Below the pieces are notes generated by a model. That model did not search any database, was not told the DNA's origin, and was given only the letters and a program-made list of their open reading frames with translations. Shown here one piece after another: positions 44,575-53,528 of a stretch of DNA of 64,000 bases (position 1 is the stretch's first letter; each line of letters begins with the position of its first letter). Source of the stretch: an uncultured Prochlorococcus sp. (lineage in GTDB: Bacteria; Cyanobacteriota; Cyanobacteriia; PCC-6307; Cyanobiaceae). Position numbers and translations under genes: made by a program. The stretch lies in the NCBI GenBank assembly GCA_902563335.1, contig CACEWU010000002.1:1-64000 (forward strand), read 5' to 3'.

Positions 44575-45240
44575 ATGCCTTTTGATAGCCCCCAGCGTTT
44601 AACGCGTAGGCGAACTTCCGCAGGACCTGTACCTCCAAGGCGCCCACTTGGAATTTCAGCTGATGGAAGTAGCCCTCATCGGCAAGGCCCTAGGCCAACT
44701 TTCCTGACATTGAGAGATCATGGCAAGGTTTATGTAGCTGATTTGCCGAGTCTTTCTGATGGGCAATTGGCTCACATAGGTAAAGAAGCAGAGGAAGTAC
44801 TGGTAAGTCTTGAAAGAAGGCTTGAAGATCTTGAGAAAGAAGCAAACAATGGTCTTGGTGACAGTGATACCATCATTAAGGCTTCTACTAAGCGTGATGT
44901 AACCCATCGCTTTATTAGGGCTATTCATGATGAGCAAGCACATCGTCGCAATAATCCTGCTTTAAAGAGTGCTGCAGCTGAATCTTTGCCACGAACTTTT
45001 TTAGAGGTTGCTCGTCACAGATTGCCTGGAGCAACATTTGACTCTTTACTCAGAGAAGCCTTGGAGGCTTGTTCTCAGGAAGAAGAGAAATCTTCAAAGG
45101 ATGAGTCCAAAGCTGTACAAGCTCCAAAGGGTCCAAAAGCACCTGCTGAAAAGCCTGTCAAAGTTGTGCCACTGCGAACCACTTCAAGCAGTATGCCTGT
45201 AGTGGTTAGTCCCGATCCAGATTTAACAAACACTAATTAG
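44575..45240 (+). CDS. Conserved cyanobacterial hypothetical protein, 221 aa
   Basis: A basic, Pro/Arg-rich and probably disordered N-terminus (residues 1-~40) is followed by a helical central region (LADLPSLSDGQL-type, EEVLVSLERRLEDLEKEAN, HRFIRAIHDEQAHRR) and a low-complexity Lys/Pro/Ala tail. There is no signal peptide or membrane segment. It resembles a picocyanobacterial core hypothetical seen after purM; the function is unknown. The layout of a helical core with charged tails suggests a nucleic-acid or protein-binding role, which is inference only. Confidence 0.75.
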   Translation: MPFDSPQRLTRRRTSAGPVPPRRPLGISADGSSPHRQGPRPTFLTLRDHGKVYVADLPSLSDGQLAHIGKEAEEVLVSLERRLEDLEKEANNGLGDSDTIIKASTKRDVTHRFIRAIHDEQAHRRNNPALKSAAAESLPRTFLEVARHRLPGATFDSLLREALEACSQEEEKSSKDESKAVQAPKGPKAPAEKPVKVVPLRTTSSSMPVVVSPDPDLTNTN

Positions 45241-45300
45241 AATTTTTTCAAATTCAAGCTTTAAATTGGCTTGAATTCAAACCAGATATTTATTTTATTA

Positions 45301-46191
45301 TTAACAATTGAGAGAATTCTTAATTAGACTTTGTATAGAGATTTTAGGGGTTGGAGCTACCTTTATTGCCATTAGAGCTTGTTTATTGGTCAACAAGGAA
45401 TTTGCAATCTCTTCGATCTCTAAAATCGAAGATGCCCAAAAAATATCTTCTCTCTGAGCTAATGATAAATGTGCACCCAGGATTTTTTTAGTCCCAAATA
45501 TAATTTGGGGTATTCCTGCAGACATGATTTCAAAGAAACGATGATTTAAATCTTGATTCAATGGAATATTTAGAGCTAATGCATGTTGTGAATATATTTC
45601 AGCTGCTGATTTTGCGTTATCTGTATTGCAATGCTTGAAAGCAATACGCTTACGTTGTATCAGGCTATTAATTATGTTTCTTCTTGATTGATGATGGATT
45701 CCTATGCTCCCAATATGAATTAAGGAAAATATAGGGGATTCTGATTTTTTTGAACTAGGATACCTGAAGAAACTTGGTGGAAGACTGTTGACCGGAATGG
45801 ATATTGCATCCTTTACTTGATCGAGAAGAGATGGATTAAAAGTCAGAATTACTGCATCATGTCTTTCTTTAGAAAGATATGAGGATAATGTTGATATCGG
45901 CTGGTGTCCATGATGTAGGTCTCCGCATGCAAGTATGGCTGGAGCCATCCACTCTTTTAAACCTTTAAGCGGATTCTGCCGCATATAGAAAGGGTCTGTA
46001 TAGTGAATTAGTAAGTGTTTTTGATAAGGAAAATTTTGATTTAATTTCTTTTTTAATAAATGAATTGAAGTGTCTGGAACATTAATACTACTAATAGAAT
46101 CAGAGATATTTGGACCAGCTTGTATAAGAGTAGGCTGCTCCCATAAAGGTTCATAACAACCATAGTGAAATAGAACTACCAATACATCCAT
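45301..46191 (-). CDS. Glycosyltransferase-like protein (group 1 type)
   Basis: A 296-residue protein. The start is the ATG at 46191, preceded by AAGGAGG eight bases before; an upstream ATG at 46212 overlaps that site and is rejected. The C-terminal half has the donor-side pattern of group 1 transferases, with SQHALALNIPLNQDLNHRFF and EIMSAGIPQIIFGTKKI, as in the CgeB-like family. The acceptor is unknown. It is the left border of the accessory zone and is convergent with the preceding hypothetical. Confidence 0.65.
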   Translation of the reverse strand: MDVLVVLFHYGCYEPLWEQPTLIQAGPNISDSISSINVPDTSIHLLKKKLNQNFPYQKHLLIHYTDPFYMRQNPLKGLKEWMAPAILACGDLHHGHQPISTLSSYLSKERHDAVILTFNPSLLDQVKDAISIPVNSLPPSFFRYPSSKKSESPIFSLIHIGSIGIHHQSRRNIINSLIQRKRIAFKHCNTDNAKSAAEIYSQHALALNIPLNQDLNHRFFEIMSAGIPQIIFGTKKILGAHLSLAQREDIFWASSILEIEEIANSLLTNKQALMAIKVAPTPKISIQSLIKNSLNC

Positions 46192-46273
46192 TACACAACC
46201 TCCTTTTGGCATTCACTGGTAGATCTCTTTTCTGATCTTATGTAGAATAATCATAGAGCTATCTTTTGAACTG

Positions 46274-46705
46274 GTGACAAAAGCAATAGAATTTAGCCAT
46301 TTTTTTAGGCTGCTCAACTCTGTTAAGGAAGGTTCTGAAGAGAATAAGCAGCCTTTACAAGATTTGTTAGATCAATATCAGTCTTTAGAAAATTGTGATA
46401 GTGGCTTGCATCAATTAGGTCAGGCTTTCATTTATATAGGACTTATTGAGTTATTTGCCTATGCTGCAACTGATGATATTAATGTCATTGGAAGTATTGA
46501 TAGGTCAAGATGGGAAGAGATGGCAAAGGAGAAACAGTCAGACCTTCCTCCTCATCTAGCTAATACAATGATTAAGCATGCAAAAAAAGAAAAATTATCT
46601 GCACAAATTTCGAGCAAATGGCCAATTTCTAAAAGAGAAGTCGAGAAAAACATTGTACCTATGGCAAGATATATAACCGAAGGTATATTAGATGCTATTG
46701 ATTAG
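46274..46705 (+). CDS. Hypothetical protein, 143 aa
   Basis: A 143-residue soluble, helical, charged protein from a GTG start. One moderately hydrophobic stretch (QAFIYIGLIELFAYAA) lies near residue 50, too polar around it to be a clear membrane helix. The C-terminal half is basic (MIKHAKKEKLSAQISSKWPI). I do not recognise it. It is divergent from the glycosyltransferase-like gene, about 80 nt between starts. Confidence 0.55.
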   Translation: MTKAIEFSHFFRLLNSVKEGSEENKQPLQDLLDQYQSLENCDSGLHQLGQAFIYIGLIELFAYAATDDINVIGSIDRSRWEEMAKEKQSDLPPHLANTMIKHAKKEKLSAQISSKWPISKREVEKNIVPMARYITEGILDAID

Positions 46706-46741
46706 TTGTATTTTTTAAATTAATATCTTTTTTATATCTCT

Positions 46742-47041
46742 ATGTTCAGAAGATTAGTGATTTTCAAGTGTTTTCTTTATTGCTTATTGATTGCTTCTTT
46801 TGCTAATGGAGAACTAGCTTTTGGGCAAATTAGAATTTGTGAGATTAAATTTGGAGAGAGAGCATTGGACCTTAAATCATCTTCTGCTACTGCTGTATCT
46901 GAAAACCCTTGGAAGAAAATTTGTTATCAGATAGGTGTTGAGCACGACTCACAAGGTAACCCTGAAGAGAGTAAGCCAATATATGCATGCTGTAGGGATC
47001 CTGTGGGTGCGGAAGTTAACACTAGCTATTCTGAAGAATAG
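46742..47041 (+). CDS. Small exported hypothetical protein with cysteines
   Basis: A 99-residue protein with a signal peptide-like N-terminus (residues 1-~28: basic FRRL, hydrophobic core CFLYCLLIASFA, likely cleavage near ELAFGQ). The mature part has four cysteines (ICEIKFG, KKICYQIGVEHD, YACCRDPVG) that could form disulfides in the periplasm. The ATG lies 36 nt after the preceding gene. The family is unknown. Confidence 0.55.
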   Translation: MFRRLVIFKCFLYCLLIASFANGELAFGQIRICEIKFGERALDLKSSSATAVSENPWKKICYQIGVEHDSQGNPEESKPIYACCRDPVGAEVNTSYSEE

Positions 47042-47074
47042 AACAAAATTTTCAAGCCAAATAATCTTTTATTG

Positions 47075-47773
47075 TTAAATGGACAGATTATATTTTTTTA
47101 CCTTCCTTAGTTGATTTGAAGCAATTGCTGTGTATTCATAGAGACTACCTCTACTATATTTGATATTTATTTTGTATGGATTGGTGAAGATTGCAATTAA
47201 GATTTTAGTGAACCTTAGGAAGTTAATAAAGCTTTGGCTTTTTATATTTTGATGGCTAATATTTTTATTGATCTTCGTTGAGACTAAATCTATTAATAGC
47301 TCCTCCTTTAACAGCTTTTTCTCGTAATACGAATTGATCGTTATGGCTTGTTCTTCCTTGCTTAGCATTGCAAGTAGCTTTTTTAGATTTTTCAGAGAGA
47401 TGTCCCTTTGTGCTGAGTTTGATTGATGCCATTGTGAATTATTGATGCTGTCAGTCTCTATGATCTCCCTTAGGATGCTTTGGTATAAAACTTCCCACTT
47501 GTATGGTTCATTTATAAATAACTCTATACCTTCGCAATGGATTCCTTCTGAAGTTGCTTTTGAAATTCTCTTTTGCTCATCAACTTCGGTTTGATTCGAT
47601 TGCCAATAATTAAAAAGAGGGGAACTCTCTTCGATAGATCTATTTAATTTGTTTAGACTCTTTGTAGAACCCATTTTATTTGAGCTATATACAGTATGTG
47701 AGAGTGTAAAAATTGATTTGAAAATAGTTTTTTGGTTTTTGCTAATTAATTGTATTAACTCATTTTTCGGCAA
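47075..47773 (-). CDS. Hypothetical protein, 232 aa
   Basis: A 232-residue, Ser/Asn/Lys/Ile-rich protein with strongly AT-biased codons. It is mainly helical, with a weakly hydrophobic region around residues 180-200 (FINFLRFTKILIAIFTNPY). No motif is recognised. The composition differs from the flanking core genes and fits recently acquired or fast-evolving DNA. Convergent with the preceding small gene. Coding is likely from length, but the function is unknown. Confidence 0.5.
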   Translation of the reverse strand: MPKNELIQLISKNQKTIFKSIFTLSHTVYSSNKMGSTKSLNKLNRSIEESSPLFNYWQSNQTEVDEQKRISKATSEGIHCEGIELFINEPYKWEVLYQSILREIIETDSINNSQWHQSNSAQRDISLKNLKKLLAMLSKEEQAITINSYYEKKLLKEELLIDLVSTKINKNISHQNIKSQSFINFLRFTKILIAIFTNPYKINIKYSRGSLYEYTAIASNQLRKVKKYNLSI

Positions 47774-47776
47774 GTG

Positions 47777-47847
47777 TCTAGGACTAGTTTTTTTTAAGAT
47801 TGCTTTATTTTGACTTTTTCAAGTGTATTGCTATCTAGGACTGGTTT
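47777..47847 (+). repeat. Short direct repeat pair
   Basis: TCTAGGACTAGTTT (47777-47790) and TCTAGGACTGGTTT (47834-47847) differ at one base and lie 57 nt apart, in a 500-nt gap without a convincing gene (47774-48273). Both copies have a nearby upstream CAAGTGT. Confidence 0.45.
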
Positions 47848-48001
47848 CTTCTCAGCATTGAAATCTTAATTTAGTGAGAGAATTATATTATTAGTTGTAT
47901 GTTTCATAATCAAAGAAGTTTTAGTTATGTTGTTCTGTTATCTTTTTCTATTTTGAAGTTATTTCCCATATGGCTGGCGACTGAAGATTTTCATCCATTA
48001 A

Positions 48002-48042
48002 GAAAGGCGCCTTTGCTAACTGGGGACAAAAAGGCGCCTTTC
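48002..48042 (+). repeat. Perfect 13-bp inverted repeat/hairpin
   Basis: GAAAGGCGCCTTT (48002-48014) and its exact reverse complement AAAGGCGCCTTTC (48030-48042) flank a 15-nt loop; the 12-mer AAAGGCGCCTTT is itself a palindrome. It is GC-rich against an AT-rich background and followed by TCTTGTG. It could be a terminator or part of a small RNA. Confidence 0.6.
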
Positions 48043-48273
48043 TCTTGTGAATCAGAACAGATTTATTCGTGAGGAGTGTTCTGACTTTTTCTTTCTACTC
48101 ATGGTGAGGGCATAGTGGCATTAGGTAAAAAATACTATTTTTTGAATACAATTGACTCCATTTTTATCAGAGGCATTAGCTCTAGCAAAGGAGGCTGCTG
48201 CGCTCTGTTGAGTTTTTTGCCTTCTCATTGGGATTTTTGTCTTATTTCAGCCTTTGTTGTGAGAGGAGACCTG

Positions 48274-48378
48274 ATGTCCATCTTCAAGCTGCTTTTAGGC
48301 TTGGACAAATGTGCCTTGAGCCTCAAGAGGCCATCTATTCGTGGCCAATCAGAAGAGGCTGCTTGTTTTGTGTTCTAA
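48274..48378 (+). CDS. Possible 34-aa small protein
   Basis: An ATG at 48274 is preceded by AGAGGAGA (48262-48269), a good ribosome-binding site. The peptide starts MSIFKLLLGLDKCALSLKRP. The same frame is open back to a GTG at 48115, but that part is less protein-like. No family is recognised. Confidence 0.35.
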   Translation: MSIFKLLLGLDKCALSLKRPSIRGQSEEAACFVF

Positions 48379-48983
48379 CAAGGTAGTGTTTTTAGAACTA
48401 ATGTTAAGATGGTTTCATTTGCGGATTCCCTTATTAGAGAAGAGATTCTGATCTTTCAATAACTGTTTCTTTGAGGGGAAAAAGAACATCTATGAGCTGA
48501 ATTTCCTGGCAATATTCAGGCTCTGCCAAGATATGTTTGCCTAAGATAGGAAAACCCTGCTTAAGCCAAGTTGGCATTAAAAGAGAGGCTCTATCCTTAT
48601 TTATTTAGGAGTTAATGAACAGGGTCCTCATCTTTAACTGGCGTATTAGGCTAAGAGGCAAAAAAAGAGCGACCCAACAGGCATCGCTCTCTCTTCTAAC
48701 GATAGTCTTGGGGACAAATCGCTTTTCTCTTTTTACACACCTAGCAATCTTGTGGAAACTCAAGATGCTAATGCCCTGACATGAATGCATTGGATCCTTA
48801 ATATTTCCATGAGTCTTATTTTTTTGCTTTATTGATGAAAGGTTAATTTGTTAATTAACTGGTTCAAGCAGTTACGTTGACCGAATGGATCAAAATAGTG
48901 ATGTTTCTATTGACAAGGACTGCGAGCTTTTAGGAAGGCTTACCCAAATGTTGTAAAGGTGTTGTTAGGCAAATGGGTAGTAT
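48379..48983. other. Gene-poor stretch in accessory region
   Basis: No supported gene over about 600 nt. It holds a hairpin at 48666-48690 and a 23-codon ATG frame at 48885-48956 (starting MDQNSDVSIDKDCELLGRL), which may be a remnant or a micro-gene. Otherwise I see nothing nameable. Confidence 0.5.
48666..48690. terminator. Terminator-like hairpin
   Basis: AGAGCGA (48666-48672) pairs with TCGCTCT (48684-48690) around an 11-nt loop. A-rich sequence on the left and CTCTTCT on the right would make it act best for transcripts on the minus strand. Moderate support. Confidence 0.4.
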
Positions 48984-49220
48984 TTATGAGCCACCATTGC
49001 AGAAATTGACGGCTGCAGAAACACTCTTTCCACTGTCTTTAATCTCTTCGACACATTCATTGAAGAATTTTGCTTGATATTTCAGGGGATAAGTTTTCAT
49101 AGCAATTGCTAGTAATGCAAGAGCAGCTAATCCGCGAGCACCAAGACCTGCTGCACCAAAGAGATACCAAAGTATGCGCCTGCTTTTGCTTGAGGAGCAT
49201 TTTTGTGATTTTTTTCCCAT
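48984..49220 (-). CDS. Small single-helix membrane protein with C-terminal cysteine pair
   Basis: A 78-residue protein from the ATG at 49220 (a TTG eleven codons upstream is also open). A basic N-terminus (KKSQKCSSSKSRR) precedes a membrane helix at about residues 15-38 (ILWYLFGAAGLGARGLAALA). The C-terminal domain has FFNECVEEIKDSGKS and AVNFCNGGS, two cysteines spaced 19 apart. I recall similar C-terminal Phe-Cys-Asn-Gly-Gly tails in picocyanobacterial small proteins, but no function is known. Confidence 0.6.
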   Translation of the reverse strand: MGKKSQKCSSSKSRRILWYLFGAAGLGARGLAALALLAIAMKTYPLKYQAKFFNECVEEIKDSGKSVSAAVNFCNGGS

Positions 49221-49504
49221 TACCGTAGTGGCGAATACGCAGACTTTAGGCAAATATCAAAAAAAGGTGTGCTTTATGTGCGATTTCAGTAGACAAATGT
49301 TTTTGAAGTGCTTCCTTCTATACCTTCTATAAAATTGCTGAGCAGATAGTGAAAATAGACGAACCTTTGAGTTTGAGCTCAATGCAAATGAGTAAAGGGT
49401 GTTGCGGCTAAGAGAACAGATGAAACTAGCTCTTAGAGATTACTCAGAATTAAATCAGGTCTTGCCCTAGCCATTTTTCACAGGATGATTAATAAAAATG
49501 ATGC

Positions 49505-49765
49505 ATGAGTGGTATGAATGACGAAAATTGGAGAGACGAATTCAAGCAATGGAAGCCAGGTCTTAAACCTTTCCAAATTAAATTGCTTGATGAGGGGGCA
49601 CAAAGTCAAAATCAGCAATGGTTGCTCAATGACATGTGGTGTGAATGGAAAAAGCTTGCTGTCAAGAAAGAAATCAAGAAGATTGCTGGCCCACATTTAG
49701 AGATTAAAGATCCGTGGGAGGAAAAAACACAAGAAACCATTGAGCCTTATGGCAAAGAAAAATGA
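49505..49765 (+). CDS. LLDEGA-motif small protein, copy A
   Basis: An 86-residue charged soluble protein. The core ENWRDEFKQW, then IKLLDEGAQSQNQQW and EWKKL, aligns with the minus-strand protein at 51033-51239: about 18 identities over 47 ungapped positions, including Trp-Arg, Glu-Phe-Lys, Ile and Leu-Leu-Asp-Glu-Gly-Ala. A longer basic tail (KKEIKKIAGPHLEIKDPWEE) is unique to this copy. Its TGA overlaps the ATG of the following membrane protein (ATGA). The function is unknown. Confidence 0.7.
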   Translation: MSGMNDENWRDEFKQWKPGLKPFQIKLLDEGAQSQNQQWLLNDMWCEWKKLAVKKEIKKIAGPHLEIKDPWEEKTQETIEPYGKEK

Positions 49766-49998
49766 AATACCCAACAGATTCCAAAGGCCGCTACTTGCGT
49801 ATACCGACCCCTTTAAAAAGAGAGGCTTGGCAAAGTAGATCACCAGAAAATTCAATCAATCTGATTAAGAGCCATAAGATTTTCATCGCTTGGTATCAAA
49901 AGAAACTTGGGCTTAGTGATTACGGCTTGCTTTGGCTTACCTTCTTTAAAGGTGTAATACTTACTCTTATTATTGAGAGGTGGATCTTCATTGATTAG
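49762..49998 (+). CDS. Small membrane protein coupled to copy A
   Basis: A 78-residue protein whose ATG overlaps the stop of the LLDEGA protein. A basic soluble N-terminus (KYPTDSKGRYLRIPTPLKRE) is followed by a C-terminal hydrophobic helix around residues 53-72 (GLLWLTFFKGVILTLIIE). It parallels the partner arrangement at 50914-51036. No family is recognised. Confidence 0.6.
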   Translation: MKYPTDSKGRYLRIPTPLKREAWQSRSPENSINLIKSHKIFIAWYQKKLGLSDYGLLWLTFFKGVILTLIIERWIFID

Positions 49999-50176
49999 GG
50001 AATTTTTTGGAATTATCTGTTATGTGTTGAAATTAGACTTCTTGAGGATGAATATTCTTGAATGGATTGAAGAACTAATTTCCTAAAAGCGCTTACTAAA
50101 AGAAGACAAGTGTTGCTAACTAGGCCTCATTTTGAGTGCAAGTTTGGACCTGAGGTCTTATTACCTTTACCTTTAG

Positions 50177-50305
50177 GAATTCAACCTGCCCACCGAACCA
50201 TCCCGGTCTTTAATTGTCATAGTTCATTGGGAATTTGAAAAAGCTCTTGCCAAAGGTGATTTTTATGTAATTACTGAAGATGGTTGTTTTGCTTATTCTG
50301 TTTAG
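50177..50305 (+). pseudogene. Remnant of a small gene, coupled to the next gene
   Basis: The frame is open from just after a TAG at 50174 to TAG at 50303-50305 and encodes protein-like sequence (HWEFEKALAKGDFYVITEDG), but it contains no ATG, GTG or TTG start. Its stop overlaps the GTG of the next gene by one base, the usual sign of a former operon. It is probably a truncated gene. Confidence 0.45.
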
Positions 50306-50664
50306 TGAAGAACGAAGAAATCTCCTTTAAGGATTTGAGTAAGGCCCAATTAGATGCTTTAAAGGACTGTTATATCGATAGTCGTGTGGATTCAATGTCT
50401 GAGGTTGATCTCAAGAAATTTGTAAGAGACGTACTTGATCTCCAAATTAGAGGAACTGTGGGTAACCAGGAAGAGAGAGAAGTATGGAAAGAGATGAAAG
50501 AGTACTTCGATGAGACCTTTGAGCAGAAAATTAAAGAAGTTCTCAAAGAAAAAGTTTCAGAAGACTTATCCATTTCACCTGAGGAGCAAGAGTTTAAAAA
50601 GAGATTGGTCTTATTGGAACAACGAAAGGCAGAAGAAGGGCATCTGAATGAAGATATGTGGTAA
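50305..50664 (+). CDS. Conserved picocyanobacterial hypothetical, 119 aa
   Basis: A highly charged helical protein from the GTG at 50305, whose first base is the last base of the preceding frame's stop codon. Segments LSKAQLDALKDCYIDSRVDS, LKKFVRDVLDLQIRGTVGNQ and EEREVWKEMKEYFDETFEQK look like a family I have seen in several marine Synechococcus and Prochlorococcus genomes, without known function. Coiled coil is likely in the second half. There is no signal or membrane segment. The frame is open further upstream without a better start. Confidence 0.65.
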   Translation: MKNEEISFKDLSKAQLDALKDCYIDSRVDSMSEVDLKKFVRDVLDLQIRGTVGNQEEREVWKEMKEYFDETFEQKIKEVLKEKVSEDLSISPEEQEFKKRLVLLEQRKAEEGHLNEDMW

Positions 50665-50717
50665 CACAGGACACTATCTTTTTTTATCAATCTCTTTATC
50701 TGCGCCTTTTGAATTAT

Positions 50718-50873
50718 CTATTTGTTTAGTTGAGATAAAAGAATTATTTGTCTTTTAAGCTTCATATTTTCGTCTTTTAGTTCTTCCATTTCATTTTGAC
50801 ACTTTTCAATCAAGCCTAGTGTCCACTTCCAGTTTCTTTCAGAACAGTGCTCTTTTGCTGCGTTCCAGTCCAT
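50718..50873 (-). CDS. 51-aa coiled-coil protein, last gene of the minus-strand cascade
   Basis: ATG at 50873 with GAGG about ten bases upstream. The peptide begins MDWNAAKEHCSERNWKWTLG and continues as an amphipathic helix with heptad spacing (LIEKCQNEMEELKDENMKLK). It lies 40 nt after the 40-aa membrane protein. The length is below usual gene-calling limits, but the site and composition support it. Confidence 0.55.
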   Translation of the reverse strand: MDWNAAKEHCSERNWKWTLGLIEKCQNEMEELKDENMKLKRQIILLSQLNK

Positions 50874-50913
50874 AGTTAAAGCCTCGTAGGGCAGAAAAAT
50901 TTTGTGAGATTTT

Positions 50914-51036
50914 TTATATACTAATTACACCTTTTAGACTAGGGAAATAAAGTTGAGAAAACACAATTTGATTTGTAAATAGGATGATTAATCCAACAGT
51001 GGATGCAAATATGAACAGAGTATTCGAATAGTTCAT
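50914..51036 (-). CDS. 40-aa single-helix membrane protein coupled to copy B
   Basis: The ATG at 51036 overlaps the TGA of the LLDEGA copy B (ATGA). The peptide starts MNYSNTLFIFASTVGLIILF and is a membrane helix followed by a short tail (TNQIVFSQLYFPSLKG). It is the structural counterpart of 49762-49998 next to copy A, though the two membrane proteins show no clear sequence identity. Confidence 0.6.
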   Translation of the reverse strand: MNYSNTLFIFASTVGLIILFTNQIVFSQLYFPSLKGVISI

Positions 51037-51239
51037 AGATTTATTGTTGGAAGGTCTGGCGGTTGATTCCTCTTTAGGCGTTTGTATTCAGCATGGAGCG
51101 CCCCTAATCGCCAGGCGTCTTTCATTGTTTTCGCCCCTTCATCTAGGAGTCTGATTTCATCAATGGAAAGCGTCCCTCTGAGTCGTTTGAACTCTTCACG
51201 CCACTTGGTCTCATCGGCTTCTTTCCAATCAACAGTCAT
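51033..51239 (-). CDS. LLDEGA-motif small protein, copy B
   Basis: A 68-residue charged protein: DETKWREEFKRLRGT, then DEIRLLDEGAKTMKDAWRLG and AEYKRLKRN. It is a clear homologue of 49505-49765 on the opposite strand (Trp-Arg-(Asp/Glu)-Glu-Phe-Lys and Leu-Leu-Asp-Glu-Gly-Ala conserved). It overlaps by ATGA both the 61-aa gene before it and the 40-aa membrane protein after it. No known domain. Confidence 0.7.
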   Translation of the reverse strand: MTVDWKEADETKWREEFKRLRGTLSIDEIRLLDEGAKTMKDAWRLGALHAEYKRLKRNQPPDLPTINL

Positions 51240-51421
51240 AGAGCCGTCGACTCCCTTAAGCGATAAAAGGTTTCAGCACAGCGGACCACAATACTTTTGT
51301 ACTCAGTAGGAAAATATTCCTTCGTTAGTCCAGGAATCATTGTTGTTGGAAATGCACCTGGTATATGAAACATCACTTCTTTCTTCTTTTCTCGACCGAA
51401 GTGTGGTGGAAGATTTGTCAT
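51236..51421 (-). CDS. 61-aa hypothetical, first gene of the minus-strand cascade
   Basis: A 61-residue basic protein (starting MTNLPPHFGREKKKEVMFHI, then YKSIVVRCAETFYRLRE), with no membrane helix. Its TGA overlaps the ATG of the LLDEGA copy B. The tight overlap and position support translation. The family is unknown. Confidence 0.5.
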   Translation of the reverse strand: MTNLPPHFGREKKKEVMFHIPGAFPTTMIPGLTKEYFPTEYKSIVVRCAETFYRLRESTAL

Positions 51422-52170
51422 GCTGCCGCCAACTTTCCTTTTTTAACAATTGCTTGAACCATAGCCCCATTCATGCGTACTGGCCTTTAAATCATTGGCT
51501 GGATTTTTTGAGTATTATCAAAGATTTTTATTCGCGTATTTTCGATTAATTTATAGCCAGCTTTTCTATAAATGAAGACTGTAAATTTTGACGATAAGTG
51601 TTCTAAAATAATAGTTTTAATCCGTATTTTTACTTTAGCAAACAGAACACTTATTGAAACACTAAAGGCTTTTGATGATTGATTTTGGCCGGCTTAACGA
51701 GTGATATCGATACTGTTCTTAAACATGAATTTTTATTCTGAAAATATTTGGTGCTATTTGTTGATTGGATTCACGAAGAAACAATTGTTGAAACTCATGA
51801 GCAGAGGTTTGAATTTGAACTTGTGCTGTTTAATGCCTAGAAGTTTTAGCTGAAGATTGGTTTTAATAGCGCAAATATTTTGTATGTGATTTCTTTATGC
51901 TTGGGAGCATTGAATTCTGTTGCTTAAGGGTAATACGACGGGCTGGGAGAGCTTAAACACCAAGCTTCCCGCTAGGTGGCTTCTCCAATTATTCCTTTGG
52001 CAAGCAAGAAGAGTTCTGGGAAACTAGGTAAGGGTTACGAGTTGGTCGATCAGAATCCTTAGTTCCATTCCGCTCCCATCCGTTCTGAATGCCAAAAAGA
52101 ATTAGGAAAAGAGATCTAATAATTGAGTTCTTGCAGCTGACCATAGGGATCGGTCAGAAGAAAGGTAAGA
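51422..52170. other. Gene-poor stretch before tRNA-Cys
   Basis: About 750 nt without a supported gene. It holds a 10-bp inverted repeat, TAAGTGTTCT (51595-51604) with AGAACACTTA (51644-51653). A short protein-like frame near 51750-51840 (VDWIHEETIVETHEQRFEFE) looks like a gene fragment. A structured segment lies around 51939-52000. Confidence 0.5.
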
Positions 52171-52241
52171 AGGCGGCACCCAGATTCGAACTGGGGATAA
52201 AGGATTTGCAATCCTCTGCCTTACCACTTGGCCATGCCGCC
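52171..52241 (-). tRNA. tRNA-Cys (anticodon GCA)
   Basis: Minus-strand cloverleaf. Acceptor GGCGGCA/TGCCGCC; D arm GGCCAAGTGGTAAGGC; anticodon stem AGGAT/ATCCT with loop TTGCAAA giving GCA; T arm CCCAGTTCGAATCTGGG; discriminator U, as expected for Cys. It forms the right border of the accessory zone. Confidence 0.97.
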
Positions 52242-53528
52242 ATGGGTGGAGAAAATCTCTCCTCAGCGGATCGTATCAGTCACAATGCTCAATGCCTCTT
52301 AGTTTTATCGAATGGGCATGGTGAAGACGTTATTGCGCTGAGAATTCTTGAGCATTTGCATGTTCTGAGACCTGAGCTTTTGCTAGAAGTCCTCCCTATG
52401 GTTGGTGAGGGTAAGGCATATGCTTCAGCAGTCGAAGAAGGGTGGATACGGCGAATCGGTCCTTTAATGAATTTACCGAGCGGTGGCTTCAGTAATCAAA
52501 GCATCAGCGGGATGTTTGCGGATATTGGAGCAGGACTTTTAAAGAACACTGTTCAACAGTGGTTGCTTGTTAAGGATGCTGTCCACAAAGGGCGCTACAT
52601 ACTTGCTGTGGGTGATTTACTCCCACTTTTTTTTGCTTGGACTAGTGGAGCACCATTCGGTTTTATAGGGACTCCTAAAAGCGATTACACCTGGAGGAGT
52701 GGCCCTGGTCATGCTTTGAGTGATCTTTACCATCGATTGAAAGGAACTGAATGGGATCCTTGGGAGTACATCTTGATGAAAACATCTCGCTGCAAGCTAG
52801 TGGCTGTAAGAGATCGTTTAACAGCTAGAGGTTTGAGGCGACATGGTGTGATTGCAAATGCTCTGGGTAATCCAATGATGGATGGACTTAAGAAAGAAGC
52901 TCTTCCATTTGCATTGTCTTTTTGTCGACGTTTGTTAGTACTTTGCGGTAGTCGCATGCCTGAAGCAGGAGTTAATTTCCAGCGGCTCATCGATGCTATT
53001 GAGCTTGTTGATATACAAACGCCTGTAGCTATTTTGGTGGCTTTAAGTTCGCAACCAAATATTGATGAAGTGGAAATTATCTTGACTAACTTGGGCTATC
53101 AATTATCTAATCATCAAAATCAAGAGATAGGAGCCATCACTTGCTGGGAAAAGGGATCTAGGTTTGTATTTCTTGGACCAGGTCAATTTTCTTGTTGGGC
53201 TTCTTGGGCAGAAGTTGGCATCGCAAATGCTGGTACTGCTACTGAGCAATTGGTAGGGCTTGGTATTCCTGCCCTTTCCTTGCCAGGGGTGGGGCCACAA
53301 TTTAAAAGAAGCTTTGCTGTAAGACAGAGTCGATTACTTGGTGGAGCGGTAATGCCTTGTAGCAGTCCTGAAGGTCTTGCAAGCAAGTTGAAATTACTTT
53401 TGGGAGATGCTTATGAGCGACAAAAGCGTGCCACAGTAGGAGTTCAAAGGATGGGTGGAGCTGGAGCTAGCACTTCCTTAGCAAAATTACTTTTGAAACT
53501 TTTGTTTGTTCAAGAGAAAAATCTATAG
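52242..53528 (+). CDS. Lipid-A-disaccharide synthase-related protein (TIGR03492 type)
   Basis: A 428-residue GT-B-like protein from the ATG at 52242. The frame is open further upstream, but that part is antisense to tRNA-Cys and is not family-like. The N-terminus LLVLSNGHGEDVIALRI and the C-terminal nucleotide-sugar region AGTATEQLVGLGIPALSLPG match, from memory, the TIGR03492 family of cyanobacteria and plants, a distant relative of LpxB/MurG; the substrate is unknown. The start codon touches the 5' end of the divergent tRNA gene, so promoter or leader sequence must overlap it. Confidence 0.82.
   Translation: MGGENLSSADRISHNAQCLLVLSNGHGEDVIALRILEHLHVLRPELLLEVLPMVGEGKAYASAVEEGWIRRIGPLMNLPSGGFSNQSISGMFADIGAGLLKNTVQQWLLVKDAVHKGRYILAVGDLLPLFFAWTSGAPFGFIGTPKSDYTWRSGPGHALSDLYHRLKGTEWDPWEYILMKTSRCKLVAVRDRLTARGLRRHGVIANALGNPMMDGLKKEALPFALSFCRRLLVLCGSRMPEAGVNFQRLIDAIELVDIQTPVAILVALSSQPNIDEVEIILTNLGYQLSNHQNQEIGAITCWEKGSRFVFLGPGQFSCWASWAEVGIANAGTATEQLVGLGIPALSLPGVGPQFKRSFAVRQSRLLGGAVMPCSSPEGLASKLKLLLGDAYERQKRATVGVQRMGGAGASTSLAKLLLKLLFVQEKNL

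Follow-up and report, generated by a model that had tools for sequence, protein, structure and literature searches.

The described systems closest to this locus are phage protein families and toxin-antitoxin systems. PHROGs 16908 (phrog_16908) and phrog_869, together with the cyanophage clusters T4-GC 410 and T4-GC 284, belong to the same protein family as P1 and P2, the two LLDEGA proteins described below. Type I toxins of the Hok and TisB kind are short hydrophobic proteins, and type II toxin-antitoxin operons have an overlapping two- or three-gene order with the soluble gene first. A survey of Prochlorococcus found no known toxin-antitoxin pairs (PMC5498466), and Prochlorococcus small ORFs of the size considered here are known to be under-annotated (PMC2518516). 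The window analyzed is a stretch of 64,000 nucleotides from an uncultured Prochlorococcus sp., and the locus lies at 49505-51421. A sequence-only reading had proposed two LLDEGA genes here, each coupled by an ATGA overlap to a gene for a single-helix membrane protein, and both the ORFs and the overlaps are real and at the positions given. That reading overlooked a third conserved gene inside the locus, gene A, whose stop codon overlaps the P2 start (ATGA), and it also overlooked that cyanophages share the family. The features are as follows.

48984..49253, minus strand: small membrane protein (GKKSQKC...RILWYLFGAAGLGARG)
49505..49765, plus strand: LLDEGA protein P1, 86 aa, subfamily A, C-terminus ...DPWEEKTQETIEPYGKEK
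49762..49998, plus strand: AWYQ-family small membrane protein, 78 aa, ATGA-coupled to P1
50284..50664, plus strand: DUF7326 protein, 126 aa, phage-shared (PF24012, 6.6e-18; phrog_1352)
50718..50873, minus strand: small coiled-coil-like ORF, 51 aa (MDWNAAKEHC...LSQLNK)
50914..51036, minus strand: NYS-family single-helix membrane protein, 40 aa, divergent copy, ATGA-coupled to P2
51033..51239, minus strand: LLDEGA protein P2, 68 aa, subfamily B (MTVDWKES...)
51236..51421, minus strand: gene A, 61 aa (..HIPGAFP..RCAETFYR..), ATGA-coupled upstream of P2
52171..52241, minus strand: tRNA-Cys, the island edge

P1 and P2 are homologous, as had been claimed. BLASTP aligned them without gaps at 18/47 identities (38%) with an E value of 2e-11 for this one single comparison. 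The resemblance is not due to chance because both proteins match phrog_16908 (2.2e-9 for P1 and 1.5e-10 for P2) and phrog_869 (0.005 and 2.5e-6) in a PHROG profile search. Neither protein had an above-chance Pfam match or any match in NCBIfam or PADLOC, and the LLDEGA family is represented by PHROG entries only, without a Pfam or NCBIfam name. The term "undescribed" thus holds for the function of a protein that sits only in unnamed PHROGs. A tree of 112 LLDEGA sequences, in which deep-fork support is limited by the short alignment, resolved subfamily A with P1 (clade support 100/99), subfamily B with P2, subfamilies C and D, and a main phage group. The LLDEGA genes belong to several old subfamilies. 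A recent duplication giving rise to P1 and P2 was ruled out by their placement in the separate, well supported clades A and B. The proteins are roughly 55-95 aa long, and W13, L31, L32, and G35 are invariant in alignments of 23 and 40 LLDEGA sequences. The AlphaFold2 model of P2 has helices at residues 9-20, 26-34, and 39-57 (pLDDT about 78-88 over residues 11-60; pTM 0.55), and the LLDEGA fold is thus predicted to consist of three helices. Foldseek found no match to the LLDEGA model in the PDB, and its best viral matches were uncharacterised cyanophage proteins. NblA is a small helical protein of cyanobacteria and phages; an NblA-like identity was dropped when neither a profile nor a fold match was found.

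The two membrane partners belong to different families. The 49762-49998 product shares 77% identity over 44 aa with the AWYQ query, and the 50914-51036 product matches the NYS query with an E value of 4.8e-5. Comparison of the two partner sequences gave no similarity, in line with the proposal that they are unrelated. The single hydrophobic helix proposed for each was assessed by Kyte-Doolittle maxima (19-residue window). The value of 2.02 for the 50914-51036 protein clearly predicts a membrane helix, and the value of 1.68 for 49762-49998 describes a weakly hydrophobic helix near the usual threshold, with a conserved Lys inside the hydrophobic stretch. The gene A product is 69% identical to the gene A query, and its family has 59 copies in 37 genomes. 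Its structural model (two strands, helix, strand, helix) has a pLDDT of 64, a low confidence, and its fold matches carry no meaning. The DUF7326 and MDWNAAKEHC homologues in the window lie between the P1 and P2 cassettes. In L015, a MDWNAAKEHC relative is coupled to a membrane gene of the AWYQ type, and in L035 a relative of the 48984-49253 protein lies 33 bases behind an LLDEGA gene of subfamily B.

Pairwise dN/dS values were 0.163 for the P1 subfamily and 0.142 for the P2 subfamily within an LLDEGA range of 0.14-0.21, 0.28 and 0.15 for the gene A subtypes, 0.157 for NYS, and 0.11 for AWYQ. The small genes tested are under purifying selection (dN/dS 0.11-0.28), and every component has orthologues in many genomes. 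The ORFs are short and mostly outside curated families, as chance open frames would be, but this explanation is scarcely credible with selection of this strength in each tested family and conservation across tens of genomes.

LLDEGA is present in 58/151 genomes of the window's own family, all of them small genomes, for a total of 110 genes. A phylum-wide scan of 244 genomes gave ten LLDEGA matches, all inside the same family, and the named cellular loci come from single-cell genomes of Prochlorococcus and from related metagenome-assembled genomes. The profile built from all subfamilies was too diverse for scans of the collections, and closer subsets were used instead. The host-type profile A2 found no viral relative in the collection scan, whereas the phage-type profile did. 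These data limit LLDEGA to Prochlorococcus-like genomes and T4-like cyanophages.

Gene neighbourhoods were tabulated in the same 151 genomes for each family, with adjacency defined as same-strand neighbours within 250 bases. The neighbour-family queries were themselves copies located next to LLDEGA, which means that the families were not chosen blindly, and because common descent links many copies (the six AWYQ pairs form a single orthologous group), the counts measure association and not independent events. The gene directly downstream of the 110 LLDEGA genes was NYS in 21 cases, AWYQ in 13, SSP in 4, another LLDEGA in 9, and none of the listed families in 63. The idea that the next gene is always a membrane protein therefore fails, since one of the three single-helix families directly follows only 38/110 LLDEGA genes. 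Of the 59 gene A copies, 29 have LLDEGA as the next gene and 9 have NYS. The upstream neighbour of NYS is LLDEGA or gene A in 30/36 copies (83%), and no listed family lies upstream of AWYQ in 64/78 copies. Most joints are 4-base overlaps, and the reverse of the A - LLDEGA - membrane gene order was not found among the 151 genomes. The 51033-type subfamily has NYS next in about 20/25 cases, and the 49505-type subfamily has a membrane partner next in about 9/36.

The membrane genes are not tied to one partner. AWYQ follows LLDEGA genes of subfamilies A and C and a C+D tandem, and SSP follows A and B, which indicates that the association either arose or was retained across deep branches. The membrane families also stand behind DUF7326, a 110-aa MPVLIIGW protein, a CCSDADY protein, the MDWNAAKEHC protein, and serine recombinases, and the ends of these alternative upstream genes often overlap or abut the membrane gene. 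DUF7326 directly precedes NYS, in the LLDEGA position, in L209 and L211, and the order in L211 is A - DUF7326 - NYS. A serine recombinase gene replaces gene A before a P2-type LLDEGA in L009 and L017. Because the same membrane families follow many unrelated small genes, the loci are exchangeable small-gene cassettes, soluble genes first and the single-helix gene last, with many-to-many pairing. The coupled soluble/membrane pair that was originally proposed stands insofar as it recurs with several subfamilies in a fixed order; it does not stand as a dedicated pair because partners are exchanged and most LLDEGA and AWYQ copies have no listed family on the relevant side.

Several other arrangements were recorded in these loci. 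In L009, L017, and L218, the stop of a serine recombinase gene, or of a recombinase-like end, overlaps an LLDEGA or AWYQ gene by ATGA; this may reflect recombination at such joints or a link to mobility. AWYQ has SSP as its next gene in 8 cases; the coupled AWYQ and SSP pair occurs in G070, G029, G119, G036, G078, G013, G028, and G006, also where genomes above 2 Mb lack LLDEGA. Locus L033 (G078:C9) has two identical A - LLDEGA - NYS cassettes at 1874 and 6995, a distance of 5,121 bases; their LLDEGA is shortened and their NYS contains charged residues. The twin cassettes reflect either a duplication or an artefact of assembly. NYS is preceded in four loci (among L204-L208) by a small ORF ending DFYEEPVGDEFAYQDW, and this ending is similar to the tails of LLDEGA proteins of subfamily D.

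The main rival to the adaptor role proposed below is that there is no functional pair at all. Short ATGA overlaps are common in bacteria, and streamlined islands may simply pack unrelated small genes with 4-base overlaps, with reshuffling and hitch-hiking producing the associations and LLDEGA acting alone, as in phages. The 63 LLDEGA genes without a listed downstream neighbour fit this explanation, as do the membrane genes behind A, DUF7326, the MPVLIIGW protein, the CCSDADY protein, and resolvase, and the phage copies that mostly lack a membrane gene. However, random packing does not readily account for an order that is never reversed, for several LLDEGA subfamilies going with the same membrane families, or for LLDEGA or A preceding so large a share of the NYS copies. 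We consider the absence of a functional pair a real possibility, although a somewhat doubtful one.

The cassettes lie in a genomic island. LLDEGA genes are beside tRNA-Cys and the same neighbouring gene (52089-53528) in five genomes including this one, and the versions of that gene in the four other genomes are relatives with 60-71% identity. The cassettes at tRNA-Cys differ: L109 has subfamily B with NYS, L120 has subfamily A with SSP, L121 has subfamily A with AWYQ, and L051 has subfamily A alone. These data identify the tRNA-Cys site (52171-52241 and 44575-52089) as an island hot spot with exchanged content.

Phages carry highly conserved LLDEGA copies. A tblastn search with P2 gave matches in 47 phage records, and the phage-type profile found at least 297 marine viral loci with LLDEGA. 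The LLDEGA protein itself is annotated as T4-GC 284 in the P-SSM2 and P-SSM7 records. The annotated protein in records labelled T4-GC 410 is an overlapping reading frame and not the LLDEGA frame, which has no annotation in the P-SSM4, P-HM1, and S-SSM6b records. In 77/80 viral loci (L124-L203), LLDEGA overlaps the end of the upstream T4-GC 410 ORF out of frame by a median of 182 bases (for example L197:2778-3243, a viral contig). The mean pairwise difference at LLDEGA third positions was 0.17 inside the overlap compared to 0.59 after it, and the third-position difference inside the overlap was still above that at positions 1 and 2. LLDEGA and T4-GC 410 form a conserved dual-coding overlap with the pattern expected when both frames are under constraint. 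LLDEGA lacked an adjacent membrane gene in 7/9 closely read phage regions, the exceptions being P-SSM2 and AG-345-F15. In the tree, the P-SSM2 copy falls together with a host protein close to subfamily D, which points to host-phage exchange. DUF7326 (PF24012, phrog_1352) is also phage-shared, with one copy per Prochlorococcus genome where it was found.

Sharing with phages, mostly without the membrane gene, raises the possibility of a toxin-antitoxin or abortive infection system in which membrane damage by the single-helix protein is held back by A and/or LLDEGA, and phage LLDEGA is the antidote. Such a system would suit a short hydrophobic gene at the end of the cassette, coupled to the small soluble genes before it, and a patchy, multicopy, and island-borne distribution. 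The NYS gene that is broken, shortened, or lost beside an intact LLDEGA in L015, L019, L022, L024, L025, and L034 would fit as well. We nevertheless judge this reading unlikely. The toxin-antitoxin suggestion made from the letters alone gained no direct support, with no toxin or antitoxin homology in Pfam, NCBIfam, or PADLOC, and the PADLOC defence models matched none of ten proteins scanned, including P1, P2, both partners, gene A, and DUF7326. A type II toxin would be expected only alongside its antitoxin; here, intact NYS stands behind A without LLDEGA, and AWYQ is under strong selection in many genomes without an upstream LLDEGA. The absence of known toxin-antitoxin pairs in the published survey also weighs against it, but that survey could not have detected a new family. 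It is a long shot that an abortive-infection or growth-control system not described before is formed by the A - LLDEGA - membrane cassettes, with the T4-like cyanophage LLDEGA as antidote or decoy.

The reading we favour, tentatively, is that LLDEGA proteins work as small adaptors or regulators, are kept at the membrane by interchangeable, co-translated partners, and act on a target that phages also use. Many host LLDEGA genes lie in compact, translationally coupled cassettes in which an optional gene A is followed by one or more LLDEGA genes and then a single-helix membrane protein. The coupled membrane protein may bind LLDEGA during synthesis and retain it at the membrane, where LLDEGA would act on a cellular target exploited by phages too. 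Since the membrane component (NYS, AWYQ, or SSP) is exchangeable, the cassettes evolve by swapping parts at the ATGA joints. The adjacency counts and the one-way gene order speak for the adaptor role, as do the recurrence of one membrane family behind different LLDEGA subfamilies, the low dN/dS values, the 4-base joints, the conserved phage copies, and the three-helix model. The LLDEGA and AWYQ copies without a listed neighbour, the phage regions without an adjacent membrane gene, the weak hydrophobicity of the 49762-49998 helix, and shared descent count against the adaptor role.

Prochlorococcus is among the most abundant photosynthetic organisms, and its genomes often have several copies of LLDEGA, which is shared with its viruses and strongly selected, yet has no curated family name. 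Of greater interest than the pair itself are the link to phages and the exchange of partners. The partner-swapping cassettes are a concrete case of island-gene recombination in streamlined genomes, and they are a testable candidate for host-phage conflict where the published survey found no known toxin-antitoxin pairs.

Compared with the described systems, the host cassettes differ from the phage members of the PHROG and T4-GC clusters, which mostly lack a coupled membrane gene. They resemble the Hok and TisB toxins and the type II operons in having a short hydrophobic protein and an overlapping gene order with the soluble gene first, but they differ in sequence (no match in Pfam, NCBIfam, or PADLOC), in having components that occur alone, and in that their products are not known to be toxic. 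DUF7326 is like LLDEGA in being small, phage-shared, and located in the same islands, and it takes the LLDEGA position between A and NYS in L211. Its sequence is unrelated to LLDEGA, and it is present in one copy per genome in the genomes searched.
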